Shown in pieces: positions 8,263-26,430 of a stretch of 64,000 nucleotides of DNA; the first letter of the stretch is position 1, and each line of letters starts with the position of its first letter. The stretch is from Synechococcus sp. ROS8604 (GTDB taxonomy: Bacteria; Cyanobacteriota; Cyanobacteriia; PCC-6307; Cyanobiaceae), in NCBI RefSeq assembly GCF_014279655.1, contig NZ_CP047946.1:2418001-2482000 (forward strand). Direction: 5' to 3'. The notes under the pieces were generated by a model, which saw only the letters and a program-made list of their open reading frames with translations, was not told the DNA's origin and made no database searches. Made by a program: the position numbers and the translations under genes.

Positions 8263-8274
8263 CCATAAACTCTA

Positions 8275-9345: not shown

Positions 9346-9369
9346 CTGGTGAATATTTAGCCTGTTATT

Positions 9370-11967: not shown

Positions 11968-12068
11968 GTACTTTTGGCATGACGTGCAAAGAGACTTAGG
12001 CCAAAACCAGTTGCTGTAACTGGCATTGAGGGTAACAACTCGGAAGTAAGCGGAATCGAAAGGCGGTA

Positions 12069-12091
12069 ATTTGTCCTGAGATTTGTCCTGA
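12069..12091 (+). repeat. Double ATTTGTCCTGA repeat, left end
   Basis: Two tandem copies of ATTTGTCCTGA form a 23-bp block that differs at one base from 26363-26385. It lies about 105 bp inside attL and immediately before the integrase start. It is a candidate for integrase arm-type or excisionase sites, or an operator controlling the integrase. Confidence 0.55.
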
Positions 12092-12095
12092 AATT

Positions 12096-13313
12096 TTGGG
12101 TGCGTTAGCTAAGTGGGAGGAAGGCTTCAGAGCAGCGGTCAAAACAGGGCGTCAAGGTTGGACCGTGGGCAACAACAGTGGACGAATGCGGCTCAAAATT
12201 CGAGCAAAAGATCTGCGTACCGATTCAGCCAACCTGCCTTTCCCCTGGACAGCAGAAGCAGTTGGAGACGCTCTTCTTCTGATCAATCGCCTCTATCCCA
12301 TTTGGATGAAGGGCGAGGTCAGCATGAAACAGGCAATCACAGAAGCCTCTGGCAAAAGTGACAACCTCGCTTCAACGGTCACAAAAACATGGCCACAAAT
12401 CATTGAAAGCTTTCGAATTTCACTTCAAGAAGGTCGAAACCAGATTCTCGACATGACTTATCGGGATAACTACGAGCCCTGCCTCAATGAAGCTCTCCGG
12501 CTATTGAGGAGCAGAACAGCTCCAGCCGATGGACACGTCTTACTTCAACGAACACTTCAACGTTGGAAGGGGAAGCCATCTAGCAGAGCTGCATGCTGCC
12601 TGGCCTTACGAAACCTGATGGACCATGCGGTTAGTCGTCACAAAATGCCCGCGGGATGGCAAATCAGCCAAACCAGTATTCGGGAACTAAGAGGTCGACC
12701 AGCAGAGAAGAAAACGAAAGCGACACTGACTGATCAAGAAGCTCTCGATTTGATCGAAGCAGTTGGCTCTCGCAACGAAGGCTGGGGAAACGTGCTGAGG
12801 CTGATGGTGCTTTATGGCTTACGACCGATAGAGCTGCAGTATTTGGCACCTCGTCTGACGGATCAGGGGGATCTGGGTTTGTGGTGCAGCTACAGAAAAA
12901 TTTCAGGCCCTAATCGCTGCGATCCTCGCTGGCTTCAGCCACTGCCACTAAGAGACAGCTTGGGTGAAACAGTCAATTGGAATCTCTGCCAAACACTGAA
13001 TGCTGGACTTCTAGAACTACCCGCTGGACGTGATGGTGACTTCAGGAAACTGAACGGCAGATACGTTCTCAATCACCTGAATCGCCAGCCTGAGTGGAAA
13101 CAGCTCAAGGACAAATACGAAGCCAGCGGAATGTGGCTACGCCCCTACTCATTCCGAGACGGATACAGCGTCCGTGCACATCGCCATGGCATTGAGACAG
13201 CTCAAATCTGCCGTGCAATGGGACATGGCCTCGCCGCACATAGCAGGGCCTATGAATCGGCTACAGATGCAACAACTAAAGATGCCTTTATTAGAGCTAC
13301 CGCCAACTCGTAA
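12096..13313 (+). CDS. Tyrosine integrase of the right-hand island
   Basis: This 405-residue integrase has an N-terminal part with NNSGRMRLKIRAKDL, typical of an arm-binding domain, followed by a core-binding helical domain (about 100-210). The catalytic domain has LMVLYGLRPIEL (Arg I), YSFRDGYSVRAHR (a variant of the HxxR box with Ser-Phe-Arg) and MGHGLAAHSRAY (His/Gly and nucleophile Tyr). The start is TTG 12096, directly after the double repeat; the next ATG would remove part of the presumed arm-binding domain. It lies about 130 bp inside attL and points inward, the usual place for an island integrase. Confidence 0.85.
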   Translation: MGALAKWEEGFRAAVKTGRQGWTVGNNSGRMRLKIRAKDLRTDSANLPFPWTAEAVGDALLLINRLYPIWMKGEVSMKQAITEASGKSDNLASTVTKTWPQIIESFRISLQEGRNQILDMTYRDNYEPCLNEALRLLRSRTAPADGHVLLQRTLQRWKGKPSSRAACCLALRNLMDHAVSRHKMPAGWQISQTSIRELRGRPAEKKTKATLTDQEALDLIEAVGSRNEGWGNVLRLMVLYGLRPIELQYLAPRLTDQGDLGLWCSYRKISGPNRCDPRWLQPLPLRDSLGETVNWNLCQTLNAGLLELPAGRDGDFRKLNGRYVLNHLNRQPEWKQLKDKYEASGMWLRPYSFRDGYSVRAHRHGIETAQICRAMGHGLAAHSRAYESATDATTKDAFIRATANS

Positions 13314-13716
13314 TGCTGCTGGCTTGCTCAATTACGAAATAAAAGCCATCCCACCACGAGGAGTTCTCTGATAGTTATGAGAGCTTTAAGGATGTCTTAG
13401 GGTTTCCTTGCGAACATCAAAACAAGGCGTTTTGGGGAGTTTTTGGGAATAAAGAGAGTTAAAACCTCGCGAAAGATCGTTAAAAAGCCTCTAAACCGCC
13501 TTTTTTTGCATTTTTCTGCCAAATAAGTGCTGCCTCTATTCCATTAGATGATGAGGAATAAACGGCTAGCTTTCTAGCAAGGACCAGGAACTCCTCAAAG
13601 AGGACCTATTTCTCTCTCCAATCCGATTCTTCCTCGAAAACTCGGAACGGAAACTTGCTTTTACCAGGAACTTTCACCAGAGGTCAGTCAGGAGATCAGG
13701 CTTTTTCCAAACACCT
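13314..13716. other. Intergenic region before the excisionase-like gene
   Basis: No gene is supported. The region is AT-rich around 13490-13560, including a C/T-rich stretch with TTTTTTT, and probably contains the promoter of the two following genes. A 115-codon plus frame starting at 13655 is out of frame with the better-supported gene at 13717. Confidence 0.4.
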
Positions 13717-13962
13717 ATGTGGATCTCTACAGAAGAGATGGCTGAAACCATTGGGATACATCCAAAGACGCTCCTTGGCTTACGCAGAAAGGACATCTGT
13801 CCATTTGAAGAAGGGACGCACTACCGCCGCAAGGGAGCTACTACCAAAAGTCCCTTGCAGTGGCAGCCAGAAAAAACTGAACAAGCCTTTACCTATTTTA
13901 AAAGGGCTGATCCAGCAGAGATTGAAATCTATGGAGGAAGTATCGGAGAGATTGATCGATGA
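13717..13962 (+). CDS. Small DNA-binding protein, excisionase-like
   Basis: This 81-residue protein begins with MWISTEEMAETIGIHPKTLLGLRR, a helix-turn-helix of the excisionase/MerR-like winged type. A basic loop (EEGTHYRRKG) with the pattern of a wing follows. Proteins of this kind next to tyrosine integrases direct excision or regulate the replication gene. It overlaps the primase-helicase start by four bases (ATGA), so the two are translationally coupled. The final acidic tail has no clear match. Confidence 0.6.
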   Translation: MWISTEEMAETIGIHPKTLLGLRRKDICPFEEGTHYRRKGATTKSPLQWQPEKTEQAFTYFKRADPAEIEIYGGSIGEIDR

Positions 13963-15770
13963 CCTTCAATATCCTTCAACACCTGGAGAAGCTCGAACCT
14001 GATGGGGGTAGCAATACTCCCCAAGGTGATCACAGCTTTAAATGTCCCAGCTGCGGATCGTCCAACTTCAAAGTCCATATCAAAAACGGGAAATATGCCG
14101 CCTTTGGTTGTGATTGCAGCAAGACAGAGGAAGGGAAACGTCGGATTCGTCATGCACTCTCGCCCTCCAGTCATAGATCTGGAGCCAACACACCTCCCAG
14201 CAAACCGATCCGCCCCAAAGCCAAGGCTCACTGGGATTACAACGACATTGATGGCAACGCCCTCATCAGGGTGAATCGAAGCGATGACGGAAACGGCAGA
14301 CGGAGGTTTTCGCAGTCATCGCGAGTGAATGGAAAATCCGTAAAAGAACTTGCAGCTCAAGTAATGCCATACCGCCTCAAAGAGGCACTTCAAGCATTGG
14401 AAGACGGTGCACCATTCATTGCACACGCAGAAGGTGAAGGATGCGTAGATGCCATATGGGCTCTTGGTTTACCTGCTATCACCAGCCTGGGTGGTTGCAA
14501 TGGCTTCAAAGCTGAAAGAGATAGCGGACACATTGATCCACAACGGTTAGTCATCGTTCCTGACCAAGACCAATGCGGCCTCACATACGCCAAAAAAGTG
14601 GCTGAGGCACACCCCGGTTGTAAGTGGCTATTGCCATTCCCAAATTCTCCGCACTGGGAAGGATCCATACCCCCAGATAGCGGACTGGACATAGCGGATT
14701 GGCTGGAACAAGGCGCAACCGCAGCAGATGTGATGGAGGGAATCCAAGAAAGCTGCCCTTTCCCAAGCAATGAAGCAATAGAGAAACCCTGTATCAACCA
14801 TGTAGGAAAAGTCCGATCAGCGGCGGAGCTTCTCAAAAACAGGAAACCCACTGATTGGTTAATTGATCAATTCGCAGCTCGTGGATGCATGACTCTTATC
14901 GGTGGTGCAACGGGTACTGGCAAAACGACATTTCTCTATGCAGCGGCGCAGGCCATCTCAACAGGCAGTTATTTCATGAATGAGTTAACTAGCAAGAGAG
15001 GCAAAGTCTTGGTAATTCAAGCTGATGAGTCTGAAACAAACTTCAGCGATAAGTTAGACCAAATGGGTATAAGTCCAAAATTTGAAATCAGCTTCGATCC
15101 AGCTTTATGGAACCTGGAACAACTCACAAGAATCCAGAAAGAGAAGAACTATGACGCGATCCTTGCAGACAGCCTGACAACACTCTTAAGCGGACAGGGC
15201 AGCAGATTTAATGATGCTGAGTTTGGTCTGCCTTGCTACGGGTACAACCACTGGGCCAGTGAGCACAATGTATGGCTTGGGGTTGCTAGTCACCTCAGGA
15301 AACAATTCAACGGGGCCGGTTCACCAACGGTGAATGACATCTATGGCGCTGGCACTCAAACATGGGCTGCATCAGATGTTTGGACACTCCACAAGCCCGA
15401 AAGGCCAGCGCATGACGATCATGTTGTCCTGCACTGCGTTAAAGCTCGCTGCTGCGAACAAGACACGATCTGGAATCTCCAGGGGAGCAAAGAAGACTTC
15501 AGTTACATCATTATGTCCGCCGGAAAAAGCAGTGACCTTTTGCCTAAGCAACAGCAAAGGTATGAACAGGAGGCTTACCAACTACTCAGCCAAAGCAATG
15601 GAAAGCATTGGCACTCTGACGATATAGCTGCGGCCATCGGTTGCAACAAGGAGCACAGCCGCAGAGTGATGAGAGGTCTCCGCAAACAGCAACGAGTTGA
15701 ACGGCATCAAATGGAGTCAACCGGAGGAAGACCACGTTGGATGTATTTCATCCCTTGGCCTTCCCCTTAA
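13959..15770 (+). CDS. Primase-helicase replication protein
   Basis: This 603-residue multidomain protein has an N-terminal zinc-binding domain (FKCPSCGSSNFK and FGCDCSK, about residues 27-55). A TOPRIM-like domain follows, with the acidic motif in HAEGEGCVDAIWALG and IVPDQDQCG (about 145-205). Next is a RecA-fold ATPase with Walker A GGATGTGKTT (about 314-323) and Walker B YDAILADSL (about 397-405). A C-terminal winged-helix segment (DDIAAAIGCNKEHSRRVMRG) ends the protein. This combination is typical of phage, plasmid and satellite replication proteins that prime and unwind DNA at their own origin. It is coupled to the excisionase-like gene and suggests that the element can replicate after excision. 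Confidence 0.85.
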   Translation: MTFNILQHLEKLEPDGGSNTPQGDHSFKCPSCGSSNFKVHIKNGKYAAFGCDCSKTEEGKRRIRHALSPSSHRSGANTPPSKPIRPKAKAHWDYNDIDGNALIRVNRSDDGNGRRRFSQSSRVNGKSVKELAAQVMPYRLKEALQALEDGAPFIAHAEGEGCVDAIWALGLPAITSLGGCNGFKAERDSGHIDPQRLVIVPDQDQCGLTYAKKVAEAHPGCKWLLPFPNSPHWEGSIPPDSGLDIADWLEQGATAADVMEGIQESCPFPSNEAIEKPCINHVGKVRSAAELLKNRKPTDWLIDQFAARGCMTLIGGATGTGKTTFLYAAAQAISTGSYFMNELTSKRGKVLVIQADESETNFSDKLDQMGISPKFEISFDPALWNLEQLTRIQKEKNYDAILADSLTTLLSGQGSRFNDAEFGLPCYGYNHWASEHNVWLGVASHLRKQFNGAGSPTVNDIYGAGTQTWAASDVWTLHKPERPAHDDHVVLHCVKARCCEQDTIWNLQGSKEDFSYIIMSAGKSSDLLPKQQQRYEQEAYQLLSQSNGKHWHSDDIAAAIGCNKEHSRRVMRGLRKQQRVERHQMESTGGRPRWMYFIPWPSP

Positions 15771-15840
15771 AGACTTTTCCTACATCCATGACACCAGGGT
15801 GAAAGTTCAATCATTCATCGATCCCCCTCACAGAAGAACT

Positions 15841-15871
15841 CTCCGCCACCTTTTCTGCGGAGGAACTCTTT
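15841..15871 (+). terminator. Possible terminator of the replication operon
   Basis: CTCCGC-(10 bases)-GCGGAG is followed by GAACTCTTTT about 70 bases after the primase-helicase stop. The loop is large and the U-run imperfect, so the call is weak. Confidence 0.35.
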
Positions 15872-16036
15872 TGCCATTGGCCGACATAACGCTTCCGCTG
15901 GAGTCTTGCTTAGTTCCACTGCCATTTGGGTAAGCGGTGCAAGAGAAGACTCTTCGCCTGGATCAAGAGGCATTTCAGTGAGTTCTTGCCAGCTCAGGCC
16001 TAATCACGAGAGACTCCATGAAACCTCACTATTTCG

Positions 16037-17047
16037 TTGATTAAACCTCATCGCTATTGCGCCCTTGGGGCAGAGATCAGCAGTGATTTGGTTTTACCTG
16101 AACTGACCGTCTCCGAATCGACCAGTAATGCGCTGGTGCAAATCCAACAGGGAGATCATGAGCAATGGCCCAGCCTTGAGCCGAGCCCTCACAGCACGCC
16201 AATACTGCAGTTAGCACCCCAGGATTGGCGCCTAGAACTTGAAGGCATTGGCTGGTTTCGTGCCACTGGTGGTGAGCGTTTGGAATGGCAGCGCTGGGAC
16301 GACAGCGTTAGCGACCGCGACATCCGCACGTTTGCTGTCACGAGTGGACTTGGAGCCCTAGCGATCCAGCGTGGTGCATTGGTTTTGCACGGAACAGCTC
16401 TGGAGCGTGACGGTGAGGCCATTCTGCTTTTGGGTCATCCAGCTGCAGGAAAGTCCACCCTGGCCTGGTGTTTAATCCAAGAAGGTTGGCACTTACTCAG
16501 TAGTGAGCTAGTTGCCGTTGGCAGTGATGGCATAGTTCAGCCAGGGATGCATCAACTCAAGCTCTGGTATGACGCTGCTATGACTTTGGAATTGGATTAT
16601 GCACAGCTACAACCTGTACGTAAGGGACTTAAGCGATATGCATTGCTAGCTGAAGAGTTAACTTGCATGCCACAGCCAACACCATTACGGCTGATCTATG
16701 CCTTAAATCGCGCCAAAGAAGATTCAGGTAAAGAGGAGGATGCCGATGAGGCAGGAGATGAAATGGAAAAAGTATCTCTTAAGGCTTCACGAATTTTCTC
16801 ACAAACAAATGCCTTAATGCGCCTGCGTAACCAAGCCTTTCACGCCAGGATGTATCGAGGCATGGACGCAGAAGCTCAATTATTTATGCAAGCAGCTGCA
16901 TTAGCTCGAACGGTGCCATTGCATGCCTTGATCGTTCCAGATGGAATCAAAGCAATGGCAGAAAGCCTCAAAGAGGTGGACCTGACGCAACCAGAATCGA
17001 TGCAACAGCGCAGAGAAGCTACAGAAGAGGACGCAAGCAATGACTGA
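16037..17047 (+). CDS. HprK-like P-loop kinase
   Basis: This 336-residue protein is related to the C-terminal ATPase domain of HPr kinase/phosphorylase. A Walker A motif GHPAAGKST is at about residues 133-141, preceded by the typical ALVLHGTALERDGEAILLLG strand-helix. The later part has an insert of acidic and Lys residues (KEDSGKEEDADEAGDE). Proteins of this type are often encoded with PqqD-like proteins in peptide-modification clusters, and a PqqD gene is nearby. The start is TTG 16037. The 3' half (from 16571) is inside the 3-kb duplication. It overlaps the sulfotransferase gene by 8 bases. Confidence 0.75.
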   Translation: MIKPHRYCALGAEISSDLVLPELTVSESTSNALVQIQQGDHEQWPSLEPSPHSTPILQLAPQDWRLELEGIGWFRATGGERLEWQRWDDSVSDRDIRTFAVTSGLGALAIQRGALVLHGTALERDGEAILLLGHPAAGKSTLAWCLIQEGWHLLSSELVAVGSDGIVQPGMHQLKLWYDAAMTLELDYAQLQPVRKGLKRYALLAEELTCMPQPTPLRLIYALNRAKEDSGKEEDADEAGDEMEKVSLKASRIFSQTNALMRLRNQAFHARMYRGMDAEAQLFMQAAALARTVPLHALIVPDGIKAMAESLKEVDLTQPESMQQRREATEEDASND

Positions 17048-17921
17048 AGATCACAGCTACTGGTATCTGGCCTCGTATCCAAAATCAGGCAACACCTGGT
17101 GCAGGGTTTTTATTACTGAATTGATGAGGCTGGCAGGAGACAATCCTGAAGAAGAATTAAATCTTAATCAAGATATTGAAACTGGAGCGATTGCCTCATC
17201 AAGACTTTGGCTGGACGATCAATTAGGAATTAATAGTTGTGATCTCAGTTTTAGCGAACTCGATCCCATGCGCGGACGTGCTGGTGCGAGTGCATGGCTA
17301 TTCGCAGAAGGAGAGCGATTTCATAAAGTGCATGATGCATTTAAATCTCCTGATTCGCGTGGGCGCCCGGTGGTGAGTACAACAGGTTGCTCTGGTGTTG
17401 TTTATATCCTGCGCCACCCGGAAGATGTGGCTGTATCACTTAGTCACTTCTTCTCATGGCCGCTGGATCGATGCGTTGATTCCCTACTGGATCCCAATGC
17501 AGCGCTGGTGCCAGGGGAACGCTTTGGCGGCCATCAAGTACGACAACACATGGGCCGCTGGGATCAACATGTGCGCTCATGGGCTGATCAAACTCAGCTT
17601 CCAGTCTTGATCATGCGCTATGAGGATATGTTGGCAAAAGGATCAGAAACATTCACTAAATTAGCAACCTTTTTGGGCCTCCCGAATGACGCTCATCTAA
17701 TTGATCAAGCACTCGAAAATACCTCCATTGATCGACTCAAGAAGCTGGAGGAAGATATTGATGGCTTTGCAGAAAAACCTGCCGGTTGTGAGCGGTTCTT
17801 TCGCTCAGGGCGAACCGGAGAAGGAGCAGAACAGCTTTCAATTGAGCAGCGAAAGCGACTAGCAAATGGGTTGTCTGAAGCGATGAATCGCTTTGAATAT
17901 GAGGGTCCAGAACTTGACTGA
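17040..17921 (+). CDS. Sulfotransferase (copy A)
   Basis: This 293-residue PAPS-dependent sulfotransferase has the 5'-phosphosulfate loop LASYPKSGNTW at about residues 10-20. The 3'-phosphate binding element is YILRHPEDVAVSLSH (about 121-135), with the family's Arg and Ser. A late FFRSGRTGEG segment corresponds to the usual RKGxxGDW-type region. It would transfer sulfate to a hydroxyl or amine of an unknown acceptor. Its overlap with the kinase gene and coupling to the next gene suggest one operon and a modification role. The sequence is identical to the copy at 21912. Confidence 0.88.
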   Translation: MTEDHSYWYLASYPKSGNTWCRVFITELMRLAGDNPEEELNLNQDIETGAIASSRLWLDDQLGINSCDLSFSELDPMRGRAGASAWLFAEGERFHKVHDAFKSPDSRGRPVVSTTGCSGVVYILRHPEDVAVSLSHFFSWPLDRCVDSLLDPNAALVPGERFGGHQVRQHMGRWDQHVRSWADQTQLPVLIMRYEDMLAKGSETFTKLATFLGLPNDAHLIDQALENTSIDRLKKLEEDIDGFAEKPAGCERFFRSGRTGEGAEQLSIEQRKRLANGLSEAMNRFEYEGPELD

Positions 17922-18480
17922 TCCTCGAATTGAATTTGTATTTGGAGAGGTGAATAATCAGCTAAAACGTGAGTTGAGAGCATTCTGGAGCCAGCATGGA
18001 AATGCATATCAAGAAGAATTGAAGTCGTTTCGAGCAACACTAAGCAATAATCAGAAGCGCATGGGTCTACTTAAAAAGCCTATATCGCGTCAGCCAGCCG
18101 CAATCTCACGTGATCAGTCAGGAGAAATTAACGGCATTGTATTTGTCGTATTACGAGAGTTAGAAGCCTCACTAGGGCTTGGAAGCCATGCCTACTTTCA
18201 ACGCATGTACATCACGCCAACAGCCCGGCATCTGACAATAAACCTAAGCTATCAACGTTTAGCAAATCAGCTCTTTAGAGCATTCCTTGAAGGATTTGAT
18301 CGTGAAGTAGAGAAACGTGATCATCGAGCAAAAGTATTACTAGCCGAAAACATTAATCCTGGATTGCAGAAAGCATCCATGCGCCGTTATTTTGCACGCC
18401 TTGGCTTCCAAATGCTTGGAGGGAATCAACTTGGCGGTGAAATTTGGGCAAGAAAGCTCAAAACACATTTCTCATTTTAG
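17899..18480 (+). CDS. Acetyltransferase-like protein (copy A)
   Basis: This protein of about 193 residues has alternating helices and strands. The order GEINGIVFVVLRELE, AYFQRMYITPTARHLTINL, QLFRAFLEGFDREVEK and, near the end, MRRYFARLGFQMLGG is like that of a GNAT N-acetyltransferase, in which a beta-bulge strand is followed by an acyl-CoA helix and a final YxxLGF element. The assignment is by pattern only. It overlaps the sulfotransferase by 23 bases when started at ATG 17899; TTG starts at 17893 or 17914 are also possible. It converges on the PqqD gene with a 4-base overlap. Confidence 0.5.
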   Translation: MRVQNLTDPRIEFVFGEVNNQLKRELRAFWSQHGNAYQEELKSFRATLSNNQKRMGLLKKPISRQPAAISRDQSGEINGIVFVVLRELEASLGLGSHAYFQRMYITPTARHLTINLSYQRLANQLFRAFLEGFDREVEKRDHRAKVLLAENINPGLQKASMRRYFARLGFQMLGGNQLGGEIWARKLKTHFSF

Positions 18481-18758
18481 TCCTCAACCACGGCAATCAC
18501 TTTCTTCTCCAAGGCAGCTTCCAGCCAAGTTTCGATAGCGGACTTGCATTCATCTGTAGTGACTTCATATTCCTCCTCCAAATACTTGCAAAGCTCAGGC
18601 AGTGTTGGCTGAGTCTTGAGTGCATTCCAAATAGCTGAGCCTGTCTCGTTAAGAACAAGATAGTCGCAGGTATTGCTTTGAAATAAAGCTACATCGCCGT
18701 CGAGTTCAGTGCAAACAGCTTGGTGATGCTGCTTAAAACGTTTGGTGCTATTAATCAT
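18477..18758 (-). CDS. PqqD-like peptide chaperone (copy A)
   Basis: This 93-residue PqqD-domain protein has DGDVALFQSNTCDYLVLNET in the first half, and GSAIWNALKTQPTLPELCKY then EEYEVTTDE in the second, the order of strands and winged helix found in PqqD. These proteins bind the leader of a ribosomal peptide and present it to a modifying enzyme. No precursor peptide or radical SAM/ATP-grasp partner is seen next to it. Together with the kinase-like and sulfotransferase genes it suggests a partial peptide-modification cassette. It is identical to the copy at 23349. Confidence 0.8.
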   Translation of the reverse strand: MINSTKRFKQHHQAVCTELDGDVALFQSNTCDYLVLNETGSAIWNALKTQPTLPELCKYLEEEYEVTTDECKSAIETWLEAALEKKVIAVVED

Positions 18759-18819
18759 CTAATGTTTCAAACCCATCATTAGCATCTTGTCAATAATGAC
18801 AGAGAACCTTGGTGAGGAT

Positions 18820-19605
18820 ATGGCACGTCAACCGCGCTATCTACCAGCAGGTCACTCCTTTCACATCACACTCAGGTGTAATAGCCGTAAGTTTCTGATT
18901 GCCAAAGGCTTGAGAAGGGATGTGCTGCTAGCTGTGCTCGCTAAAGCCAAGCAGAAGGTGCCACACAAGTTGTATGCAGTGTGCCTGATGGCTAATCACC
19001 TGCATCTGCTTCTGCGTCCTGATGATGCAAGTGAATTGCCAAAGCTGATGCATTGGATTGGCTGGTATTCAGCCATGGCACTAAACCGCCTTTCTGGTCG
19101 TTGCGGGCATTTTTGGGAGGCTCGGTATTACGCCACTGCGATTGCACCAAAAGATCACAGACGAGTGCTGAATACATTGCGCTACATCCACGCTAATCCA
19201 AAGGCAGCAGGAATCAGAAAAGGGTTTTATGACCCCTATTCCAATTACGGGCATTACGGAAGATTGGAGTGTGATGGCATCAGTGAGTGGCACCCCAGCT
19301 TTCTGCAACTGGCATCAAGCCTGAAGGGTTGTTCCAGGCGATATGCACGGTTCTGCCAGTACTACCGACACAAAGGGAAAGGCGGTTCTAGGTGCCATTG
19401 GGGCTCAAGCATGCTGAAACGACTGGTTGAAAAAGGCAGAAGCAGTCAAAGCAGGAAGAACCGGGTCTCACCAGGTCAGCAGAACTTACCCTTTGCATTT
19501 GATATTCGCCTCAATCAAATGCCAGAAGAGTGGCATCAAGTCGCGGTGAGATTTACACGAGCCAATGGCATCCGTGATGGTGATTCACGGCCATTGCTGT
19601 GGTGA
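18820..19605 (+). CDS. RAYT transposase, copy A with altered C-terminus
   Basis: This 261-residue protein starts at ATG 18820 (MARQPRYLPAGHSFHIT), chosen because it matches the start of the copies at 3197 and 7268 and is preceded by GGTGAGGAT. The HUH motif NHLHLL and RYIHANP Tyr are intact. The last six residues are SRPLLW instead of QILKLW, because the 3-kb duplication ends at base 19584 and a different sequence follows. It faces OMP3. Confidence 0.82.
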   Translation: MARQPRYLPAGHSFHITLRCNSRKFLIAKGLRRDVLLAVLAKAKQKVPHKLYAVCLMANHLHLLLRPDDASELPKLMHWIGWYSAMALNRLSGRCGHFWEARYYATAIAPKDHRRVLNTLRYIHANPKAAGIRKGFYDPYSNYGHYGRLECDGISEWHPSFLQLASSLKGCSRRYARFCQYYRHKGKGGSRCHWGSSMLKRLVEKGRSSQSRKNRVSPGQQNLPFAFDIRLNQMPEEWHQVAVRFTRANGIRDGDSRPLLW

Positions 19606-19732
19606 ATAAATTGAGGGGATAAGCGTATTGATAGAGATCTTGAATGCAGAGGTTGAGTTTACTTTGCCTAAATATTTAAAGTGGAATTAATTAATATAGA
19701 AATCATCAATGGAAGAAATGCTGGCACGATAT

Positions 19733-19816
19733 AGGTGCCAGGTATTGGAAGGCATTTATGCGTGATTAGGCAGTGATTAAAGAAATAAAAAGCCCTTGCA
19801 ATTGCAAGAGCTTTGG
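19733..19816. repeat. Convergent-end repeat with bidirectional terminator, copy 4
   Basis: It begins AGGTGCCAGGTATTGG and ends in AATAAAAAGCCCTTGCAATT followed by the complementary GCAAGAGCTTTGGG. The stem is nearly perfect and would work in both directions between RAYT copy A and OMP3. Confidence 0.65.
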
Positions 19817-19903
19817 GAGTTAGCCTCTAATTTCTTTCTTCAATTTTTTCTAATTAATTTTTTCTTTGCGTAGCTTGCTTCTGTGTCTGTGTGCCTGAAA
19901 CAG

Positions 19904-20884
19904 TTAGTACGTGCATGTCCCTAAGTAAAACGACTTGTCCTGACATCCCTGAATCGTGTCGTGCACCCGTACATCCCTGTTCTTGGGTGATGCTGTTAAC
20001 GCATTAATTGTTGGATTCTCCCACTTTTTCTTCTTCGCTGCTGTTGTACTTGGACCACCAAATCGCACTTTAAGATCAGCTGAAACTCTTGTATCGAATG
20101 CTTCGTCATAGGAGATATTCACTCCTGCTGTGACGCCACTTGTCATTTCATAGGCCAAGCGTCCGAGCACGCCAGAACCATCTGCTTCTCCTAGATCACC
20201 ACTTTGATAGTAATAACCAACAGACGCATTAACGGCTGGAGTGATCAAATAACCAACATCAAGCCCGTAGGTATCCAGCGAGCCGCCTTGATAAACGCTA
20301 TTCAGCTGTTGCTCTGTATCACCAACAGGAACTAAGGCATAGGCATTGAAGTTCCAGCTATCAGAGACTGCTTCTGCATTGACAGCGACCTGCTGGAAGA
20401 ACGCACTCTTCTCTGTGCCGCTGACATTGATGCCTGTATCTGCATCACCTGTATTCATCGGGCGGCTGTCATAGCCACCGTTGATGCCATACATCCAGCT
20501 GCGATCACCATTCAGCCAGCGATACCCCAATCGCGTTGAGGTACTGATCGTGGTGCCAGCAACAGTGGTGTTGATGATGCTGCTGTCATTGCCGTAATCA
20601 GCAAAGTTGGCATTGAGCAGCACATCAGCAAAGAAGACGCTGTTGTCACCAACAGAGAGGGGCAAGAAGCCACCGATGCCTGCTTGGTTCGGCGTTCCTG
20701 CTCCTTGCAATGCGCCTTGAAAACCAAGGGTTGGCTTGACCACATCCTTAAGGCTGATGCTCATCACCCCAAGGTCATCAGCATTGACGTCGTCTTGAGC
20801 AGCAGCAGGTAAGAGAGGAGCGTTGGCGAGGGCAAGAGCAGCAACACCGCTCAGCGATAACGACAGGCGCAAGGAACGCTGCAT
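19904..20884 (-). CDS. Outer-membrane beta-barrel protein with two-cysteine tail (OMP3)
   Basis: This 326-residue protein has a different signal peptide from OMP1 and OMP2 (MQRSLRLSLSLSGVAALALA, ending PAAAQ), then DDVNADDLGVMSISLKDVV and the shared barrel ending ADLKVRFGG. After the linker (AKKKKWENPTINAL, NRDVRVHD) the unique 17-residue tail TIQGCQDKSFYLGTCTY has two Cys nine residues apart. Signal peptide and linker are close to OMP4, but the barrel differs from OMP4 at scattered positions. The inverse-autotransporter-like assignment is inferred from strand order. Confidence 0.75.
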   Translation of the reverse strand: MQRSLRLSLSLSGVAALALANAPLLPAAAQDDVNADDLGVMSISLKDVVKPTLGFQGALQGAGTPNQAGIGGFLPLSVGDNSVFFADVLLNANFADYGNDSSIINTTVAGTTISTSTRLGYRWLNGDRSWMYGINGGYDSRPMNTGDADTGINVSGTEKSAFFQQVAVNAEAVSDSWNFNAYALVPVGDTEQQLNSVYQGGSLDTYGLDVGYLITPAVNASVGYYYQSGDLGEADGSGVLGRLAYEMTSGVTAGVNISYDEAFDTRVSADLKVRFGGPSTTAAKKKKWENPTINALTASPKNRDVRVHDTIQGCQDKSFYLGTCTY

Positions 20885-20929
20885 TGAAAAAAATCTATTG
20901 AGCGCAACATGACATGCAACGTGCCACTC

Positions 20930-20975
20930 TTTTACTGCTGCTGCGAGCTGCAGTAGGCAGTTTCAGCTGTGCAAC
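20930..20975 (-). promoter_or_regulatory. Conserved 5' element of the outer-membrane genes, copy 3
   Basis: CTGCTGCGAGCTGCAGTAGG followed by CAGTTTCAGCTGTGC lies about 50-90 bp upstream of the OMP3 start. The 3' half of the element (TTTGCTGCTATT) is lost here, where the ORF103 remnant begins. Confidence 0.4.
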
Positions 20976-20985
20976 AAGTCAATTG

Positions 20986-21280
20986 GGCGGTGTGCAGCGT
21001 TGCCAACCGATCTTCTGCAGGTTGATCCACATCTCGATGCCTAGGTGCAAGAAGCAAGAACGGGTTTCCCAAGCCGAGCTGACAAGCGGTAGTAGCTCAC
21101 CAGAACGAACTGAGCATGTTGGGTTGCTGCATCTGGCTTGATCTGTAGGAGCATCCCTTCCTGTCTGTTGACCAGCCAGCCTTCACCGTTGAGCTTCTCC
21201 TTGTATCTGGCGTAATCAGGCTGCTGCTGCCACATCAGAGCAGTTTGACGAAATTGCCCAGTGGGGTGAGACCCACTCAC
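20986..21280 (-). pseudogene. Second, deleted copy of ORF103
   Basis: From GTG 21280 the frame encodes SGSHPTGQFRQTALMWQQQP and so on, close to ORF103 at 10120-10431. A deletion near 21047 shifts the frame so that it ends early (GKPVLASCT). Beyond the deletion, nucleotide similarity resumes (CTGCAGGTTGATCCACATCT and flanks) up to about 20986. The gene therefore lost its last 25 or so residues. Confidence 0.6.
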
Positions 21281-21442
21281 TCGAAAGGATGAGTCCCATT
21301 CATCCTTCTAAATCACTGTTAGTTCGGTTGGTTTAGTAATTGTTTGATTCCGTAAGCCGCTTAGGACTGGAGTTCTCGTAGTCGGTTGAAACTGATGCTC
21401 CTCTGTCCGTTTGATTGCATTGCCCCAGCTGCTGCTCAAGAC

Positions 21443-21919
21443 GACGCTGCTATGACCTTGGAATTGGATTATGCACAGCTACAACCTGTACGTAAGGGAC
21501 TTAAGCGATATGCATTGCTAGCTGAAGAGTTAACTTGCATGCCACAGCCAACACCATTACGGCTGATCTATGCCTTAAATCGCGCCAAAGAAGATTCAGG
21601 TAAAGAGGAGGATGCCGATGAGGCAGGAGATGAAATGGAAAAAGTATCTCTTAAGGCTTCACGAATTTTCTCACAAACAAATGCCTTAATGCGCCTGCGT
21701 AACCAAGCCTTTCACGCCAGGATGTATCGAGGCATGGACGCAGAAGCTCAATTATTTATGCAAGCAGCTGCATTAGCTCGAACGGTGCCATTGCATGCCT
21801 TGATCGTTCCAGATGGAATCAAAGCAATGGCAGAAAGCCTCAAAGAGGTGGACCTGACGCAACCAGAATCGATGCAACAGCGCAGAGAAGCTACAGAAGA
21901 GGACGCAAGCAATGACTGA
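21443..21919 (+). pseudogene. 3' fragment of the HprK-like kinase gene
   Basis: The fragment begins at the duplication boundary and encodes the last 158 residues of the kinase, without the Walker A motif. An ATG at 21386 opens a continuous frame (MKLMLLCPFDCIAP fused to AAAQDD), so a hybrid protein of 177 residues could be made. It cannot be an active P-loop kinase. Confidence 0.8.
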
Positions 21920-22793
21920 AGATCACAGCTACTGGTATCTGGCCTCGTATCCAAAATCAGGCAACACCTGGTGCAGGGTTTTTATTACTGAATTGATGAG
22001 GCTGGCAGGAGACAATCCTGAAGAAGAATTAAATCTTAATCAAGATATTGAAACTGGAGCGATTGCCTCATCAAGACTTTGGCTGGACGATCAATTAGGA
22101 ATTAATAGTTGTGATCTCAGTTTTAGCGAACTCGATCCCATGCGCGGACGTGCTGGTGCGAGTGCATGGCTATTCGCAGAAGGAGAGCGATTTCATAAAG
22201 TGCATGATGCATTTAAATCTCCTGATTCGCGTGGGCGCCCGGTGGTGAGTACAACAGGTTGCTCTGGTGTTGTTTATATCCTGCGCCACCCGGAAGATGT
22301 GGCTGTATCACTTAGTCACTTCTTCTCATGGCCGCTGGATCGATGCGTTGATTCCCTACTGGATCCCAATGCAGCGCTGGTGCCAGGGGAACGCTTTGGC
22401 GGCCATCAAGTACGACAACACATGGGCCGCTGGGATCAACATGTGCGCTCATGGGCTGATCAAACTCAGCTTCCAGTCTTGATCATGCGCTATGAGGATA
22501 TGTTGGCAAAAGGATCAGAAACATTCACTAAATTAGCAACCTTTTTGGGCCTCCCGAATGACGCTCATCTAATTGATCAAGCACTCGAAAATACCTCCAT
22601 TGATCGACTCAAGAAGCTGGAGGAAGATATTGATGGCTTTGCAGAAAAACCTGCCGGTTGTGAGCGGTTCTTTCGCTCAGGGCGAACCGGAGAAGGAGCA
22701 GAACAGCTTTCAATTGAGCAGCGAAAGCGACTAGCAAATGGGTTGTCTGAAGCGATGAATCGCTTTGAATATGAGGGTCCAGAACTTGACTGA
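21912..22793 (+). CDS. Sulfotransferase (copy B)
   Basis: The encoded protein is identical to that of 17040-17921: 293 residues with YPKSGNTW and RHPEDVAVSLSH motifs. It overlaps the kinase fragment by 8 bases as in copy A. If transcription of copy A starts upstream of the full kinase gene, copy B must depend on read-through or a new promoter near 21300-21440. Confidence 0.88.
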   Translation: MTEDHSYWYLASYPKSGNTWCRVFITELMRLAGDNPEEELNLNQDIETGAIASSRLWLDDQLGINSCDLSFSELDPMRGRAGASAWLFAEGERFHKVHDAFKSPDSRGRPVVSTTGCSGVVYILRHPEDVAVSLSHFFSWPLDRCVDSLLDPNAALVPGERFGGHQVRQHMGRWDQHVRSWADQTQLPVLIMRYEDMLAKGSETFTKLATFLGLPNDAHLIDQALENTSIDRLKKLEEDIDGFAEKPAGCERFFRSGRTGEGAEQLSIEQRKRLANGLSEAMNRFEYEGPELD

Positions 22794-23352
22794 TCCTCGA
22801 ATTGAATTTGTATTTGGAGAGGTGAATAATCAGCTAAAACGTGAGTTGAGAGCATTCTGGAGCCAGCATGGAAATGCATATCAAGAAGAATTGAAGTCGT
22901 TTCGAGCAACACTAAGCAATAATCAGAAGCGCATGGGTCTACTTAAAAAGCCTATATCGCGTCAGCCAGCCGCAATCTCACGTGATCAGTCAGGAGAAAT
23001 TAACGGCATTGTATTTGTCGTATTACGAGAGTTAGAAGCCTCACTAGGGCTTGGAAGCCATGCCTACTTTCAACGCATGTACATCACGCCAACAGCCCGG
23101 CATCTGACAATAAACCTAAGCTATCAACGTTTAGCAAATCAGCTCTTTAGAGCATTCCTTGAAGGATTTGATCGTGAAGTAGAGAAACGTGATCATCGAG
23201 CAAAAGTATTACTAGCCGAAAACATTAATCCTGGATTGCAGAAAGCATCCATGCGCCGTTATTTTGCACGCCTTGGCTTCCAAATGCTTGGAGGGAATCA
23301 ACTTGGCGGTGAAATTTGGGCAAGAAAGCTCAAAACACATTTCTCATTTTAG
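22771..23352 (+). CDS. Acetyltransferase-like protein (copy B)
   Basis: The protein is identical to that of 17899-18480, with the same overlaps on both sides and the same uncertain assignment to the GNAT fold. Confidence 0.5.
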   Translation: MRVQNLTDPRIEFVFGEVNNQLKRELRAFWSQHGNAYQEELKSFRATLSNNQKRMGLLKKPISRQPAAISRDQSGEINGIVFVVLRELEASLGLGSHAYFQRMYITPTARHLTINLSYQRLANQLFRAFLEGFDREVEKRDHRAKVLLAENINPGLQKASMRRYFARLGFQMLGGNQLGGEIWARKLKTHFSF

Positions 23353-23630
23353 TCCTCAACCACGGCAATCACTTTCTTCTCCAAGGCAGCTTCCAGCCAA
23401 GTTTCGATAGCGGACTTGCATTCATCTGTAGTGACTTCATATTCCTCCTCCAAATACTTGCAAAGCTCAGGCAGTGTTGGCTGAGTCTTGAGTGCATTCC
23501 AAATAGCTGAGCCTGTCTCGTTAAGAACAAGATAGTCGCAGGTATTGCTTTGAAATAAAGCTACATCGCCGTCGAGTTCAGTGCAAACAGCTTGGTGATG
23601 CTGCTTAAAACGTTTGGTGCTATTAATCAT
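23349..23630 (-). CDS. PqqD-like peptide chaperone (copy B)
   Basis: This 93-residue protein is identical to the one at 18477-18758. It converges on the acetyltransferase-like gene with a 4-base overlap and is divergent from the following RAYT, leaving about 60 bases for both promoters. Confidence 0.8.
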   Translation of the reverse strand: MINSTKRFKQHHQAVCTELDGDVALFQSNTCDYLVLNETGSAIWNALKTQPTLPELCKYLEEEYEVTTDECKSAIETWLEAALEKKVIAVVED

Positions 23631-23691
23631 CTAATGTTTCAAACCCATCATTAGCATCTTGTCAATAATGACAGAGAACCTTGGTGAGGAT

Positions 23692-24477
23692 ATGGCACGT
23701 CAACCGCGCTATCTACCAGCAGGTCACTCCTTTCACATCACACTCAGGTGTAATAGCCGTAAGTTTCTGATTGCCAAAGGCTTGAGAAGGGATGTGCTGC
23801 TAGCTGTGCTCGCTAAAGCCAAGCAGAAGGTGCCACACAAGTTGTATGCAGTGTGCCTGATGGCTAATCACCTGCATCTGCTTCTGCGTCCTGATGATGC
23901 AAGTGAATTGCCAAAGCTGATGCATTGGATTGGCTGGTATTCAGCCATGGCACTAAACCGCCTTTCTGGTCGTTGCGGGCATTTTTGGGAGGCTCGGTAT
24001 TACGCCACTGCGATTGCACCAAAAGATCACAGACGAGTGCTGAATACATTGCGCTACATCCACGCTAATCCAAAGGCAGCAGGAATCAGAAAAGGGTTTT
24101 ATGACCCCTATTCCAATTACGGGCATTACGGAAGATTGGAGTGTGATGGCATCAGTGAGTGGCACCCCAGCTTTCTGCAACTGGCATCAAGCCTGAAGGG
24201 TTGTTCCAGGCGATATGCACGGTTCTGCCAGTACTACCGACACAAAGGGAAAGGCGGTTCTAGGTGCCATTGGGGCTCAAGCATGCTGAAACGACTGGTT
24301 GAAAAAGGCAGAAGCAGTCAAAGCAGGAAGAACCGGGTCTCACCAGGTCAGCAGAACTTACCCTTTGCATTTGATATTCGCCTCAATCAAATGCCAGAAG
24401 AGTGGCATCAAGTCGCGGTGAGATTTACACGAGCCAATGGCATCCGTGATGGTGATCAAATCCTCAAGCTGTGGTGA
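23692..24477 (+). CDS. RAYT transposase, copy B
   Basis: This 261-residue protein is identical to the copy at 18820 up to the duplication boundary (24456). It then ends QILKLW as in the 7268 copy, so this is the normal C-terminus. HUH and Tyr motifs are intact. It faces OMP4. Confidence 0.85.
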   Translation: MARQPRYLPAGHSFHITLRCNSRKFLIAKGLRRDVLLAVLAKAKQKVPHKLYAVCLMANHLHLLLRPDDASELPKLMHWIGWYSAMALNRLSGRCGHFWEARYYATAIAPKDHRRVLNTLRYIHANPKAAGIRKGFYDPYSNYGHYGRLECDGISEWHPSFLQLASSLKGCSRRYARFCQYYRHKGKGGSRCHWGSSMLKRLVEKGRSSQSRKNRVSPGQQNLPFAFDIRLNQMPEEWHQVAVRFTRANGIRDGDQILKLW

Positions 24478-24602
24478 TTTAAAGAAAATATGAACATATC
24501 CTTAGAGGCAACAAATAAAGACAGTGAGCTTATATTGCCTGATTTTTTTATATGAATTATTGAATACTGAACTCACGATGCAAGCTCCTTTAGGACTCTG
24601 AT

Positions 24603-24688
24603 CGTGCCAGGTATTGAAGGGCGATATGGACGGTTATTAGAGCTAATAAAGAAATAAAAAGCCCCAGCAATTGCAGGGGCTTTGGGGG
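24603..24688. repeat. Convergent-end repeat with bidirectional terminator, copy 5
   Basis: It begins CGTGCCAGGTATTGAAGG and ends in the palindrome AAGCCCCAGCAATTGCAGGG plus GCTTT, with AATAAA on the left. It is the best-preserved terminator of the family. Confidence 0.7.
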
Positions 24689-24735
24689 TTAGGGTCAATC
24701 AAAATAAAATAATGTGGCTAAGAAAAATAATGTGG

Positions 24736-25722
24736 CTAAGACGTGACCGTAAAGCCGGCATTTCCACCATAAAAAGTACACGACCCGCAGTACTGCGTGT
24801 CGTGCACCCGAACATCCCTGTTCTTGGGTGTTGCTGTTAACGCATTAATTGTTGGATTCTCCCACTTTTTCTTCTTAGATGCTGTTGTACTTGGACCACC
24901 AAAGCGAACTTTAATATCAGCTGAAACTCTTGTATCAAATGCTTCGTCGTAGGAGATATTGACTCCTGCTGTAACTCCACTGGTCATTTCATAAGCCAAG
25001 CGTCCGAGTACGCCAGAGCCATCAGCTGTTCCTAAATCACCATTTTGGTAGTAGTAACCAACAGACGCATTCACCACTGGAGTGATGAAATAACCAACAT
25101 CAAGCCCGTAGGTGTTGAGTGAACCGCCTTGATAAACGCTGTTGAGTTGAGCTTCTTTCTCACCAACAGGAACCAAGGCATAGGCATTGAAATTCCAGCT
25201 ATCAGAGACCGCTTCTGCATTGACTGCCACCTGCTGGAAGAAGACGCTGCTCTTATCTGTGACGGATACCCCTGTATCGGCATCACCTGTAGCCATCGGA
25301 CGGCTGTCATAACCAGCATTCAGCCCATACATCCAGCTGCGATCGCTATTCAACCAGCGATAACCAAGCCTTGATGAGGTGCTGATGGTGGTGCCAGCAA
25401 CAGTGGTGTTGATGAGGCTGCTGTCATTGCCGTAATCAGCAAAGTTGGCATTGAGCAGCACATCAGCAAAGAACACACTGTTATCGCCAACAGACAGTGG
25501 CAAGAACCCGCCAATGCCTGCTTGATTCGGTGTTCCAGCACCCTGCAGTGCGCCTTGAAAACCAAGGGTTGGCTTGACCACATCCTTAAGGCTGATGCTC
25601 ATCACCCCAAGGTCATCAGCATTGACGTCGTCTTGAGCAGCAGCAGGTAAGAGAGGAGCGTTGGCGAGGGCAAGAGCAGCAACACCGCTCATCGATAACG
25701 ACAGGCGCACGGAACGCTGCAT
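24736..25722 (-). CDS. Outer-membrane beta-barrel protein with two-cysteine tail (OMP4)
   Basis: This 328-residue protein has the OMP3-type signal peptide (MQRSVRLSLSMSGVAALALA, ending PAAAQ). Its barrel (residues about 40-275) is encoded by a 714-bp tract identical to OMP2. The linker is OMP3-type (SKKKKWENPTINAL, NRDVRVHD), and the unique 20-residue tail TQYCGSCTFYGGNAGFTVTS has two Cys two residues apart. The gene is thus a mosaic of the OMP2 barrel with OMP3 ends plus its own tail. Confidence 0.75.
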   Translation of the reverse strand: MQRSVRLSLSMSGVAALALANAPLLPAAAQDDVNADDLGVMSISLKDVVKPTLGFQGALQGAGTPNQAGIGGFLPLSVGDNSVFFADVLLNANFADYGNDSSLINTTVAGTTISTSSRLGYRWLNSDRSWMYGLNAGYDSRPMATGDADTGVSVTDKSSVFFQQVAVNAEAVSDSWNFNAYALVPVGEKEAQLNSVYQGGSLNTYGLDVGYFITPVVNASVGYYYQNGDLGTADGSGVLGRLAYEMTSGVTAGVNISYDEAFDTRVSADIKVRFGGPSTTASKKKKWENPTINALTATPKNRDVRVHDTQYCGSCTFYGGNAGFTVTS

Positions 25723-25756
25723 CTCAAAAAATCTATTGAGCGCAAGATGCCACTCT

Positions 25757-25802
25757 TTTACTGCTGCTGCCCGCTGCAGTAGCCAGTTTCAGCTTTGCTG
25801 CC
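25757..25802 (-). promoter_or_regulatory. Conserved 5' element of the outer-membrane genes, copy 4
   Basis: TACTGCTGCTGCCCGCTGCA followed by GTAGCCAGTTTCAGCTTTGC lies at the usual distance upstream of OMP4. Similarity stops right after TTTGCTGCC, where unrelated element DNA begins. Confidence 0.4.
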
Positions 25803-25854
25803 CTGCGCTCACAAACGGATTAAAAGCTCACGCCAAGCGTCCAAGCCATCAGCC

Positions 25855-26184
25855 TTATCTACGCGAAGCAGACAAACCACATAGCTTGTCCAGCTGAGAT
25901 ACAGCACCAACAACGGCACCAGGATTGTTTTGCGCCAAACCCATTCGCGCACTCTCCATCAATAAATGAATGGCCTGTGCAATTAAGTCAGTCCTTTCAA
26001 CATTGCATTGATCAATGTCCTCGCGAATCAAGGCATAAGCCTGTTGAACAGTTCTCTGCGCTGTGCGGCGACTAAGCCCCTTTGATTCCGCCAGCTGCGT
26101 CACCACTGCAGTACAGCTGTAACCCTCTAAAAGCTTGGCGTGCGCTTGCTTGACCCGATCAAAAATCTCTACTCGATGAGCCAT
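25855..26184 (-). CDS. Helix-turn-helix protein resembling a phage terminase small subunit
   Basis: This 109-residue all-helical protein has an N-terminal DNA-binding region with LLEGYSCTAVVTQLAESKGL and SRRTAQRTVQQAYA. A second helical part (AIHLLMESARMGLAQNNPGA, VVGAVSQLDKLCGL) resembles the oligomerisation segment of small terminase subunits, which often end in a similar A-L-x-x-L-x-K-L-x-G-L pattern. The assignment is by pattern, not by a known signature. It starts at ATG 26184, whose A overlaps the TGA of the 58-residue gene, so the two are coupled. In phage satellites a small terminase redirects packaging; that role here is inference. Confidence 0.45.
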   Translation of the reverse strand: MAHRVEIFDRVKQAHAKLLEGYSCTAVVTQLAESKGLSRRTAQRTVQQAYALIREDIDQCNVERTDLIAQAIHLLMESARMGLAQNNPGAVVGAVSQLDKLCGLSASRR

Positions 26185-26360
26185 CAAAGAAGCTCCCAGC
26201 GTTTCAAGGCTGCTTTCAGCTTTTTGCTTGTTGCTTGATCAAAGTCCAGCTCAATAAGAGCAGCCTGAAGACGATGCCGATAGTCCTTTTGATCAAGCCT
26301 GTTGATCGCGTAATCCAAAACGCTGATCTCAGACCGATAAGCCGCGGCCAAAGTACCCAT
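26184..26360 (-). CDS. 58-residue protein at the right end of the island
   Basis: The frame MGTLAAAYRSEISVLDYAIN to AALKRWELL is acidic/basic and helical, with no known family. It starts at ATG 26360, right after the double ATTTGTCCTGA block, and ends in TGATG shared with the next gene. The first residues (MGTLAAAY) resemble the start of the integrase (MGALAKWE), which also follows the double repeat, so the two ends of the element may share a control region. Confidence 0.6.
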   Translation of the reverse strand: MGTLAAAYRSEISVLDYAINRLDQKDYRHRLQAALIELDFDQATSKKLKAALKRWELL

Positions 26361-26362
26361 GC

Positions 26363-26385
26363 ATTTGTCCTGAAATTTGTCCTGA
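26363..26385 (+). repeat. Double ATTTGTCCTGA repeat, right end
   Basis: This 23-bp block is identical to 12069-12091 except for one base and is in the same orientation. It lies about 75 bp inside attR. Confidence 0.55.
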
Positions 26386-26430
26386 ACGCAACAAGCGAAA
26401 ATCTCAGTGTAGCGAGGATCCGTGTCCTGG

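Follow-up and report, generated by a model that had tools for sequence, protein, structure and literature searches.

A cargo-carrying element in the tmRNA gene of a marine Synechococcus, probably a phage satellite

Introduction

In phage satellites of the Staphylococcus aureus pathogenicity island (SaPI) type, the terminase small subunit (TerS) directs packaging by the terminase large subunit (TerL) and the capsid of a helper phage (PMC6092414; this and the other papers are cited here for individual passages). The tycheposons of Prochlorococcus have been counted among the proposed satellite families (PMC11389934). The other systems closest to the locus described here are the phage-inducible chromosomal islands (PICIs), their minimalist counterparts in Vibrionaceae (PICMIs) and an integrase element of picocyanobacteria.

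Here we describe an element in the genome of Synechococcus sp. ROS8604. It lies in a stretch of 64,000 nucleotides (positions 2418001-2482000 of the host genome, a single contig of 2.88 Mb), which we call the window. We read it, with a probability of roughly 0.73, as a cargo-carrying phage satellite of marine picocyanobacteria that is specific for the transfer-messenger RNA (tmRNA) gene, PICI-like in function and close to the tycheposons. Because it has its own integrase, a replication gene and an orphan TerS, the element, together with its exchangeable cargo, is probably carried from cell to cell in phage particles that it does not make itself. Such an element would offer a concrete and testable vehicle by which genes reach the genomic islands of marine cyanobacteria of the Synechococcus type.

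An element at the 3' end of the tmRNA gene

As far as sequence can tell, window positions 11914-26476 (about 11.91-26.48 kb; 14.5 kb) are a discrete mobile element inserted at the 3' end of the tmRNA gene. Its boundaries and mobility genes, together with an older neighbour, are listed below (aa, amino acids; HTH, helix-turn-helix).

11012-11989, minus strand: remnant of an older, different integrase, outside the element (Phage_integrase E 3e-7; phrog_1 E 3e-23)
11914-11963, plus strand: attL, displaced copy of the tmRNA 3' end (86% over 51 alignment columns against 26428-26476)
12070-12091, plus strand: left tandem repeat TTTGTCCTGAGATTTGTCCTGA, probable recombinase arm-type sites (repeat pattern search of the window)
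12096-13313, plus strand: tyrosine recombinase (integrase), TTG start (phrog_1 E 2e-5; invariant catalytic residues in 14 homologues)
13717-13962, plus strand: excisionase/AlpA-like HTH protein, 81 aa, overlapping the primase start (HTH_17 E 0.006, DUF1233 E 0.02, below cut-off)
13959-15770, plus strand: primase-helicase, TOPRIM-like plus AAA_25 (AAA_25 E 1.8e-14; phrog_239 E 3e-16)
25855-26184, minus strand: TerS-like protein, 109 aa from ATG at 26184, or 110 aa if extended to a TTG at 26187 (homologous to genes before phage TerL)
26184-26360, minus strand: 58-aa protein encoded upstream of TerS, its stop codon overlapping the start of TerS (homologues in genomes G032 and G293, 67% and 69% identical, likewise upstream of a TerS at tmRNA)
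26364-26385, plus strand: right tandem repeat TTTGTCCTGAAATTTGTCCTGA, orientation as the left one (repeat pattern search; identical in G032, G276 and G293)
26428-26476, plus strand: attR, inside the intact tmRNA 3' end (sequence match to the attL copy)
26441-26728, minus strand: tmRNA gene, permuted, cyanobacterial, the insertion target (RF01851, 303.6 bits; ARAGORN 26418-26732)

The two attachment copies stand in direct orientation, the left one imperfect. When the two flanks of the element are joined without it, they give a single alignment of 796 columns, 80% identical, to positions 17683-18460 of locus L077 in another genome (G023; G and L numbers are our handles for genomes and loci), and aligned separately both flanks take the same 44 bp there. 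By this alignment the joined flanks reproduce an unoccupied site of that genome. Around the tmRNA gene the guanine-cytosine (GC) content shifts from about 0.48 to 0.57-0.60, and the element lies inside the low-GC part.

An earlier note on this DNA had proposed a phage-satellite-like gene set at 12096-26360, free of capsid and tail genes. The integrase, the excisionase-like gene (its assignment weak), the primase-helicase and the TerS-like gene are all found where it placed them, and the interval does hold an element, of which the true bounds are slightly wider at both ends; the tmRNA-end copies and the tandem repeats had been missed. Its remark on structural genes is likewise borne out. No capsid, tail or TerL family stood above chance among the element proteins scanned, a set outside which lay the second gene copies (except a truncated kinase and the second porin) and small unassigned open reading frames (ORFs). 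Packaging-category matches within this set came only at E 0.13-0.19.

The integrase has no Pfam match. Its residues R243, K268, R354, H377 and Y386 are shared by all 14 homologues in the alignment, and Tyr351 stands at the usual box-II His; we assume the customary roles for these residues (R, K, R, H, Y; box II). Homologues occur in 73 of 149 related genomes (E <= 0.001), and relatives of the 81-aa HTH protein adjoin related integrases. The primase-helicase, whose TOPRIM label we presume from inspection, has its best phage relative in Synechococcus phage S-CBS4 (26%, E 3e-39) and homologues in 27 of the 149 genomes (E 1e-10).

Specificity for tmRNA appears to be a property of the integrase clade. 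Twelve integrase loci are closest, the window's own among them; L002-L004 count as near-copies, and L002 and L005 match weakly (E 0.001). In ten of the 12 a tmRNA-end copy lies upstream of the integrase, and degenerate copies are visible by eye in the remaining two, L006 and L012. Among eight less related loci, five have tRNA-Thr or tRNA-Arg upstream (L013, L015-L018) and one a tmRNA end (L014), with neither a tRNA nor a tmRNA end upstream of L019 and L020.

The end repeats add a second signature. They lie just inside each tmRNA-end copy and follow the pattern TTTGTCCTGA(A/G)ATTTGTCCTGA, with ATTTGTCCTGA present twice. With up to three mismatches allowed, this pattern matches the 64-kb window at the two ends and nowhere else (2 matches, 0.00 expected), and eight of the 300 family genomes searched contain it (control with the pattern reversed: 0 among the matches listed). 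A motif of 7-12 bp in two or three copies stands directly before the integrase gene in 11 of 13 upstream regions examined; L005 has a diverged pair seen by eye and L006 none that convinces. In L059 (TGTCACG) and L089 (TGCCCAC) the motif recurs at the tmRNA end in unchanged orientation, and apart from single stray copies elsewhere (2/8 and 5/9) closely spaced copies occur at both ends only. Close relatives of the integrase carry clade-specific tandem repeats just before the gene, probably in the layout expected of recombinase arm-type sites flanking an attP core, although the repeats may instead be operators.

The older integrase remnant has a homologue in L077 (17112-18197, E 1e-107) that abuts an intact tmRNA gene, its frame overlapping the tmRNA 3' end. 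Since this homologue abuts tmRNA there and the joined flanks align continuously, the element landed between the tmRNA gene and an integrase that was already resident there. The site has therefore been used by a further integrase lineage, unrelated to that of the element, whose copy in the window is truncated and displaced by the younger element. The low-GC DNA to the left looks like an older island, and contains matches to a Glutamine-II riboswitch (5368-5427, minus strand) and to the Cyano-1 RNA (10602-10666, plus strand). We considered and rejected a single unit comprising the entire low-GC island, which would reach very roughly another 25 kb leftwards, because the left part holds the older truncated integrase and lies outside the attachment copies.

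The terminase small subunit-like protein

The 110-aa protein at the right end is very probably a terminase small subunit, an assignment that follows from genomic context and profile and not from the fold. Its family is present in 34 of the 149 relatives (E <= 0.01); of ten named genome loci with a member, nine belong to Synechococcus and one to a gammaproteobacterial metagenome-assembled genome. Two types within the family lead to phages: the L085 type matches the Prochlorococcus phages P-HS2, MED4-184 and MED4-117 (E 3e-15) and phrog_34910 (8e-19), and the L062 type matches six contigs of IMG/VR. The phage searches gave no match for the L062 and L057 types and one 47-aa match at E 0.7 for the L055 type.

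In all eight phage loci (the six IMG/VR contigs, whose family members share 26-29% identity with the window protein, plus P-HS2 and MED4-117) the TerS homologue is followed by TerL. In seven of these, P-HS2 and MED4-117 among them, the two reading frames share 4 nt, and in L098 they are separated by 1.1 kb; P-HS2 and MED4-117 (L099, L100) have identical TerS and TerL and count as one. Three of the phage TerLs were checked against Pfam and proved to be Terminase_6N/6C. To avoid circularity, a test profile was built from the 12 of 22 members of alignment A1 nearest to the window protein, leaving out the types through which the phages had been reached. Run against the 509 ORFs of the eight loci, it recovered exactly the eight genes that precede TerL (E 5e-11 to 2e-12).

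Across the family, phrog_34910 (annotated 'unknown function') matches 13 of 22 members at E up to 0.5 and phrog_836 ('late transcriptional activator') three of 22, best E 0.004; regulator and ParB-like families match one to three of the 22, and DNA-packaging gp3 one (E 0.13). Among the proteins of phrog_34910 is the hypothetical protein directly before TerL in P-HS2 and MED4-117 (L099:8983-9306, L100:8983-9306). We tentatively suggest that phrog_34910 is a terminase small subunit, which would give this phage family of unknown function a role.

An orphan gene that recurs with an integrase

The host genome has no TerL of the Terminase_6N family, other Pfam TerL families being outside the search. 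Within the same scope, 31 of the 34 TerS-bearing genomes, some of them incomplete, have no such TerL; it is present in G026, G076 and G078. TerS is under purifying selection. The ratio of nonsynonymous to synonymous substitution rates (dN/dS) is 0.04-0.13 in ten of 11 pairs, and synonymous sites are saturated in the eleventh. For the window protein it is 0.05-0.06 against L073 and L147, with synonymous sites near saturation. In the comparison with L147, TerS stands at 0.06 (dS 2.9) and the 58-aa gene at 0.31 (dS 1.0), while dS is saturated for the integrase, the HTH gene and the primase.

TerS also keeps company with the integrase. Of the 23 TerS genes in closed genomes, 10 have an integrase homologue no more than 20 kb away, where 0.73 would be expected and the maximum in 2000 random placements was 5. 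When all 55 TerS places are used, 23 are near an integrase, with TerS pointing inwards in 15, the same way in seven and outwards in one; the window, L147, L054 and L056 belong to the inward-pointing group.

One relative is found in another genus. In G293 (L147, on a contig of 2.51 Mb) two copies of the end repeat stand 8.0 kb apart in a complete sister element of 8.3 kb at tmRNA. Identity to the window is 80% for the integrase, 58% for the HTH protein, 42% for the primase, 79% for TerS and 69% for the 58-aa protein, and the cargo differs, one of its proteins combining cytidylyltransferase and RraA-like domains. A third genus (G032) has TerS, the 58-aa gene, the repeat and the tmRNA end at a contig edge. 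G276 (L148:10503-10871) has what reads as a scar beside tmRNA, namely the repeat with the first codons of the 58-aa gene; the rest was not seen in 20 kb. As judged from these loci, the same type of element occupies the same site in three genera with a patchy distribution, and its two ends are better conserved than its middle. The satellite-like plan put forward earlier therefore gains from the recurrence of integrase, HTH gene, replication gene and TerS together, and from a sister at the same site in another genus.

The replication genes that accompany TerS vary among the seven relatives scanned: VapE-like in L054, L056, L059 and L060, DUF3854 with D5 in L062 and L089, and DUF3854 with AAA_25 in L053; the window element has the AAA_25 type. 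VapE-type replication genes are what we take to be a PICI trait. TerS types do not track the integrase target, with L060 from the tmRNA clade and L062 from beside tRNA-Thr close to each other (many forks of the tree are weak), which suggests module exchange. A broader picture, which we hold only tentatively and consider less probable than not, is that of a widespread, modular satellite lineage of marine picocyanobacteria. Its ends (attL-repeat-integrase and TerS-58-aa gene-repeat-attR) would form a conserved mobility and packaging unit around an exchangeable replication gene and cargo, and genes for host fitness, such as those for porins and surface glycans, would be shipped between genera in cyanophage capsids, with tmRNA as the docking site.

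These relatives also bear on a simpler history, in which the locus is a decayed prophage that lost TerL, capsid and tail and kept integrase, replication gene and TerS beside host cargo. Among 40 loci (L053-L092) plus the window and L021, a TerL-like sequence appears once: next to the L064 TerS lies a fragment of 74 aa (E 3e-4 to 5e-4), as such decay might leave behind. Yet the reduced set persists in many genomes under purifying selection and with unrelated replication genes, the ends are intact in another genus, and TerS types are mixed among integrases, so that we regard decay as largely refuted and very improbable. The TerS of L064 has a further neighbour beside the TerL-like fragment, a run of small ORFs (L064:1228-4233) with a common leader ending in a GG motif, presumably Nif11/prochlorosin-like.

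For the satellite reading, the following cycle can be proposed. The integrase and the HTH protein would excise the element as a circle, with the end repeats serving as arm-type sites, and the primase-helicase would replicate it. The element's TerS would then recognise a site on the element DNA and pass this DNA to a siphovirus-like cyanophage infecting the cell, whose TerL and capsids would take it up. Cargo would be carried along, integration would follow at the tmRNA gene of the next cell, and the outcome would be horizontal spread of the element. Given its exact ends, a natural unoccupied site, the minimal 8.3-kb sister and the short repeat, excision, circle and virion DNA are easily assayed by polymerase chain reaction and read mapping.

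Evidence against packaging

Several results weigh against the satellite reading, beginning with the identity of the protein. For the window TerS, Pfam, PHROGs and NCBIfam offer no profile named as TerS (NCBIfam and PADLOC give no match of any kind), and the protein is matched best, though weakly, by HTH_36 (E 0.007) and by phrog_3887, a 'transcriptional regulator' (E 0.047). A tblastn search of the window TerS against 50,697 phage records found nothing, so that the link to phages runs via family members; the window integrase has no match in phage records either. The AlphaFold model, an HTH followed by a two-helix hairpin, is middling (predicted local distance difference test 77.9, predicted template-modelling score 0.50; 13 sequences, five models from 51 to 78). 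Foldseek gave no match at E<0.001 for this model; a small terminase ranked 35 in the PDB (E 4.7), and three of the 50 BFVD matches listed were named terminase small subunit (E 0.65-0.91). A profile search of PDB sequences gave 15 matches up to E 10, best E 0.1, with no terminase among them. A structural second look at 597 chains lends weak support, since its best hit was the small terminase of phage G20c (6ejq; Z 7.2, root-mean-square deviation 1.9, 51 residues) and small terminases took ranks 1 and 6 (Z 7.2 and 6.1), all over the HTH part only and below the trust level of Z 8.

Other contrary results concern distribution. No listed integrase lies within 20 kb on the same contig for 32 of the 55 TerS places, which is due in part to short contigs, and in L059, L060, L062, L065 and L089 TerS points the same way as the integrase and not inwards. 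Beside the integrases of L090, L091 and L092 no TerS was found within 20 kb, so TerS is not universal. A divergent repressor pair and a capsid-size or interference gene were not recognised among the element proteins scanned.

The search for packaged DNA belongs here as well. In IMG/VR no relative was found with the window TerS, the alignment of the nearest TerS proteins (A2), the window integrase or the end repeat, nor with the L085-type TerS, and no helper was found. The earlier note had named absence from virion-associated DNA as part of its refuting condition, and these scans brought up no such DNA. A scan with the integrase alignment did bring up ten integrase relatives in IMG/VR, two of them with TerS (L116, L123) and none, over the stretches examined, with a TerL resembling those of the phages. 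One of the two, L116 (3300042306_001894; 4.2 kb), combines TerS with an incomplete integrase relative and a minor head protein of the Mu F-like type, has no TerL and looks like a satellite with a head gene, though membership in IMG/VR is not proof of a virion.

These results leave room for a different function of the protein in what would still be a genuine integrative island: a DNA-binding regulator or directionality factor acting at attR, recruited from a phage TerS and not used for packaging. Nine of 35 TerS loci lie within 500 bp of a tRNA or tmRNA gene (25 such genes in the 665 kb of these loci), TerS and the 58-aa protein are conserved about as well as the integrase and above the primase between the window and L147, and the separate Xis-like HTH protein is weakly assigned. 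We nevertheless consider this role unlikely, because all eight homologues on phage contigs stand before TerL and an Xis-like gene already sits beside the integrase. Profile searches turned up no confident match to a non-packaging regulator, HTH_36 and phrog_3887 being the best for the window protein, and the call of a TerS-like protein, originally based on pattern, is supported: its homologues stand directly before TerL in phages, no Terminase_6N TerL accompanies it in the host genome, and it recurs with integrase, HTH protein and replication gene.

Cargo

Between the primase-helicase and TerS the element carries a large cargo zone.

16037-17047, plus strand: HprK-related kinase (TIGR04352 E 2.5e-12, below cut-off)
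17040-17921, plus strand: sulfotransferase (PF00685 E 1.6e-16)
17893-18480, plus strand: 195-aa protein with no assigned family (no Pfam match at E <= 0.1; weak PADLOC CorA-like match, E 5e-4)
18477-18758, minus strand: PqqD-like protein (PF05402 E 1.8e-13)
18787-19605, plus strand: transposase associated with repetitive extragenic palindromes (REP-associated tyrosine transposase, RAYT; PF01797 E 5e-14; NF047646 E 6e-18, below its cut-off)
19904-20884, minus strand: porin-like beta-barrel protein (IAT_beta E 0.02, below cut-off; further copies in other islands of the host genome)
21443-24456, plus strand: second copy of 16571-19584, comprising truncated kinase, sulfotransferase, 195-aa protein, PqqD and RAYT (99.97% over 3014 bp)
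24736-25722, minus strand: second porin-like protein (88% to the first at the DNA level)

The kinase, sulfotransferase, 195-aa and PqqD genes are adjacent (16037-18758), and the group suggests a peptide-modifying cassette. The 3,014-bp duplicated block sits between porin genes that differ by 12%; at 99.97% it may be a very recent copy or conversion, or an effect of assembly. Porin-like and RAYT genes occur in many copies over several islands of the host genome (window 1-9400, L053, L072, L083), mostly at about 80-97% DNA identity, as if RAYT-flanked porin cassettes were shuffled among them. The PADLOC scan returned only mads_8 (E 0.008) and the CorA-like match.

A cargo zone of this size and exchangeability would also suit an element of the tycheposon type that spreads mainly by vesicles or generalised transduction, with TerS giving a marginal benefit or interfering with phages. 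Tycheposons are cited as cargo carriers of 4-200 kb (PMC10872708), and a cargo stretch of 3.8 kb recurs at 94%, in opposite orientation, in a second integrase-TerS locus near tRNA-Pro of the same genome. This route leaves unexplained why TerS is retained under purifying selection without TerL. We think it improbable, though somewhat less so than a regulatory role for TerS, and favour transport as a phage satellite.

Comparison with known systems

We found no description of a tmRNA satellite of Synechococcus in the literature covered, a provisional statement, as the defining papers on tycheposons and on virion-encapsidated integrative mobile elements (VEIMEs) lie outside it. Among the phages, the nearest counterpart is the pre-TerL gene of P-HS2, MED4-184 and MED4-117 (phrog_34910), which belongs to the same family by profile and is phage-borne together with TerL.

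In the passages cited, two described systems share part of the plan and differ in site. The PICMIs of Vibrionaceae are likewise small satellites of integrase, AlpA and primase without capsid-remodelling genes, but insert at fis, and the word terminase does not occur in the main text of that paper (PMC10803314). The picocyanobacterial integrase element of PMC10187409 also has a divergent tyrosine recombinase missed by the usual models and also lies in islands, but is described at tRNA-Phe and tRNA-Cys, often with a small serine recombinase, whereas here tmRNA and TerS are combined.

PICIs and SaPIs are described with integrase, excisionase, primase or replication gene, sometimes terS, attachment sites and no structural genes (PMC6092414), all of which the element matches, the excisionase by a weak assignment; lytic genes are likewise absent from the element proteins scanned. 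It departs from the PICI arrangement of a divergent regulator pair with the integrase opposed to the excisionase and replication genes: integrase, excisionase-like gene and primase are all on the plus strand and TerS on the minus strand, and no repressor was recognised among the element proteins scanned with Pfam, PHROGs and NCBIfam. With the tycheposons, as far as the cited text describes them, the element shares a picocyanobacterial host, a tyrosine recombinase, a stable-RNA site and cargo. At 14.5 kb with a tyrosine recombinase it fits the 4-200 kb range, but the tycheposon sites given are seven tRNA genes (PMC10872708), and the element borders on tmRNA and not on a tRNA. Read from its gene content, the element would thus work like a PICI yet lack one PICI feature, and it resembles the tycheposons yet uses tmRNA instead of tRNA.

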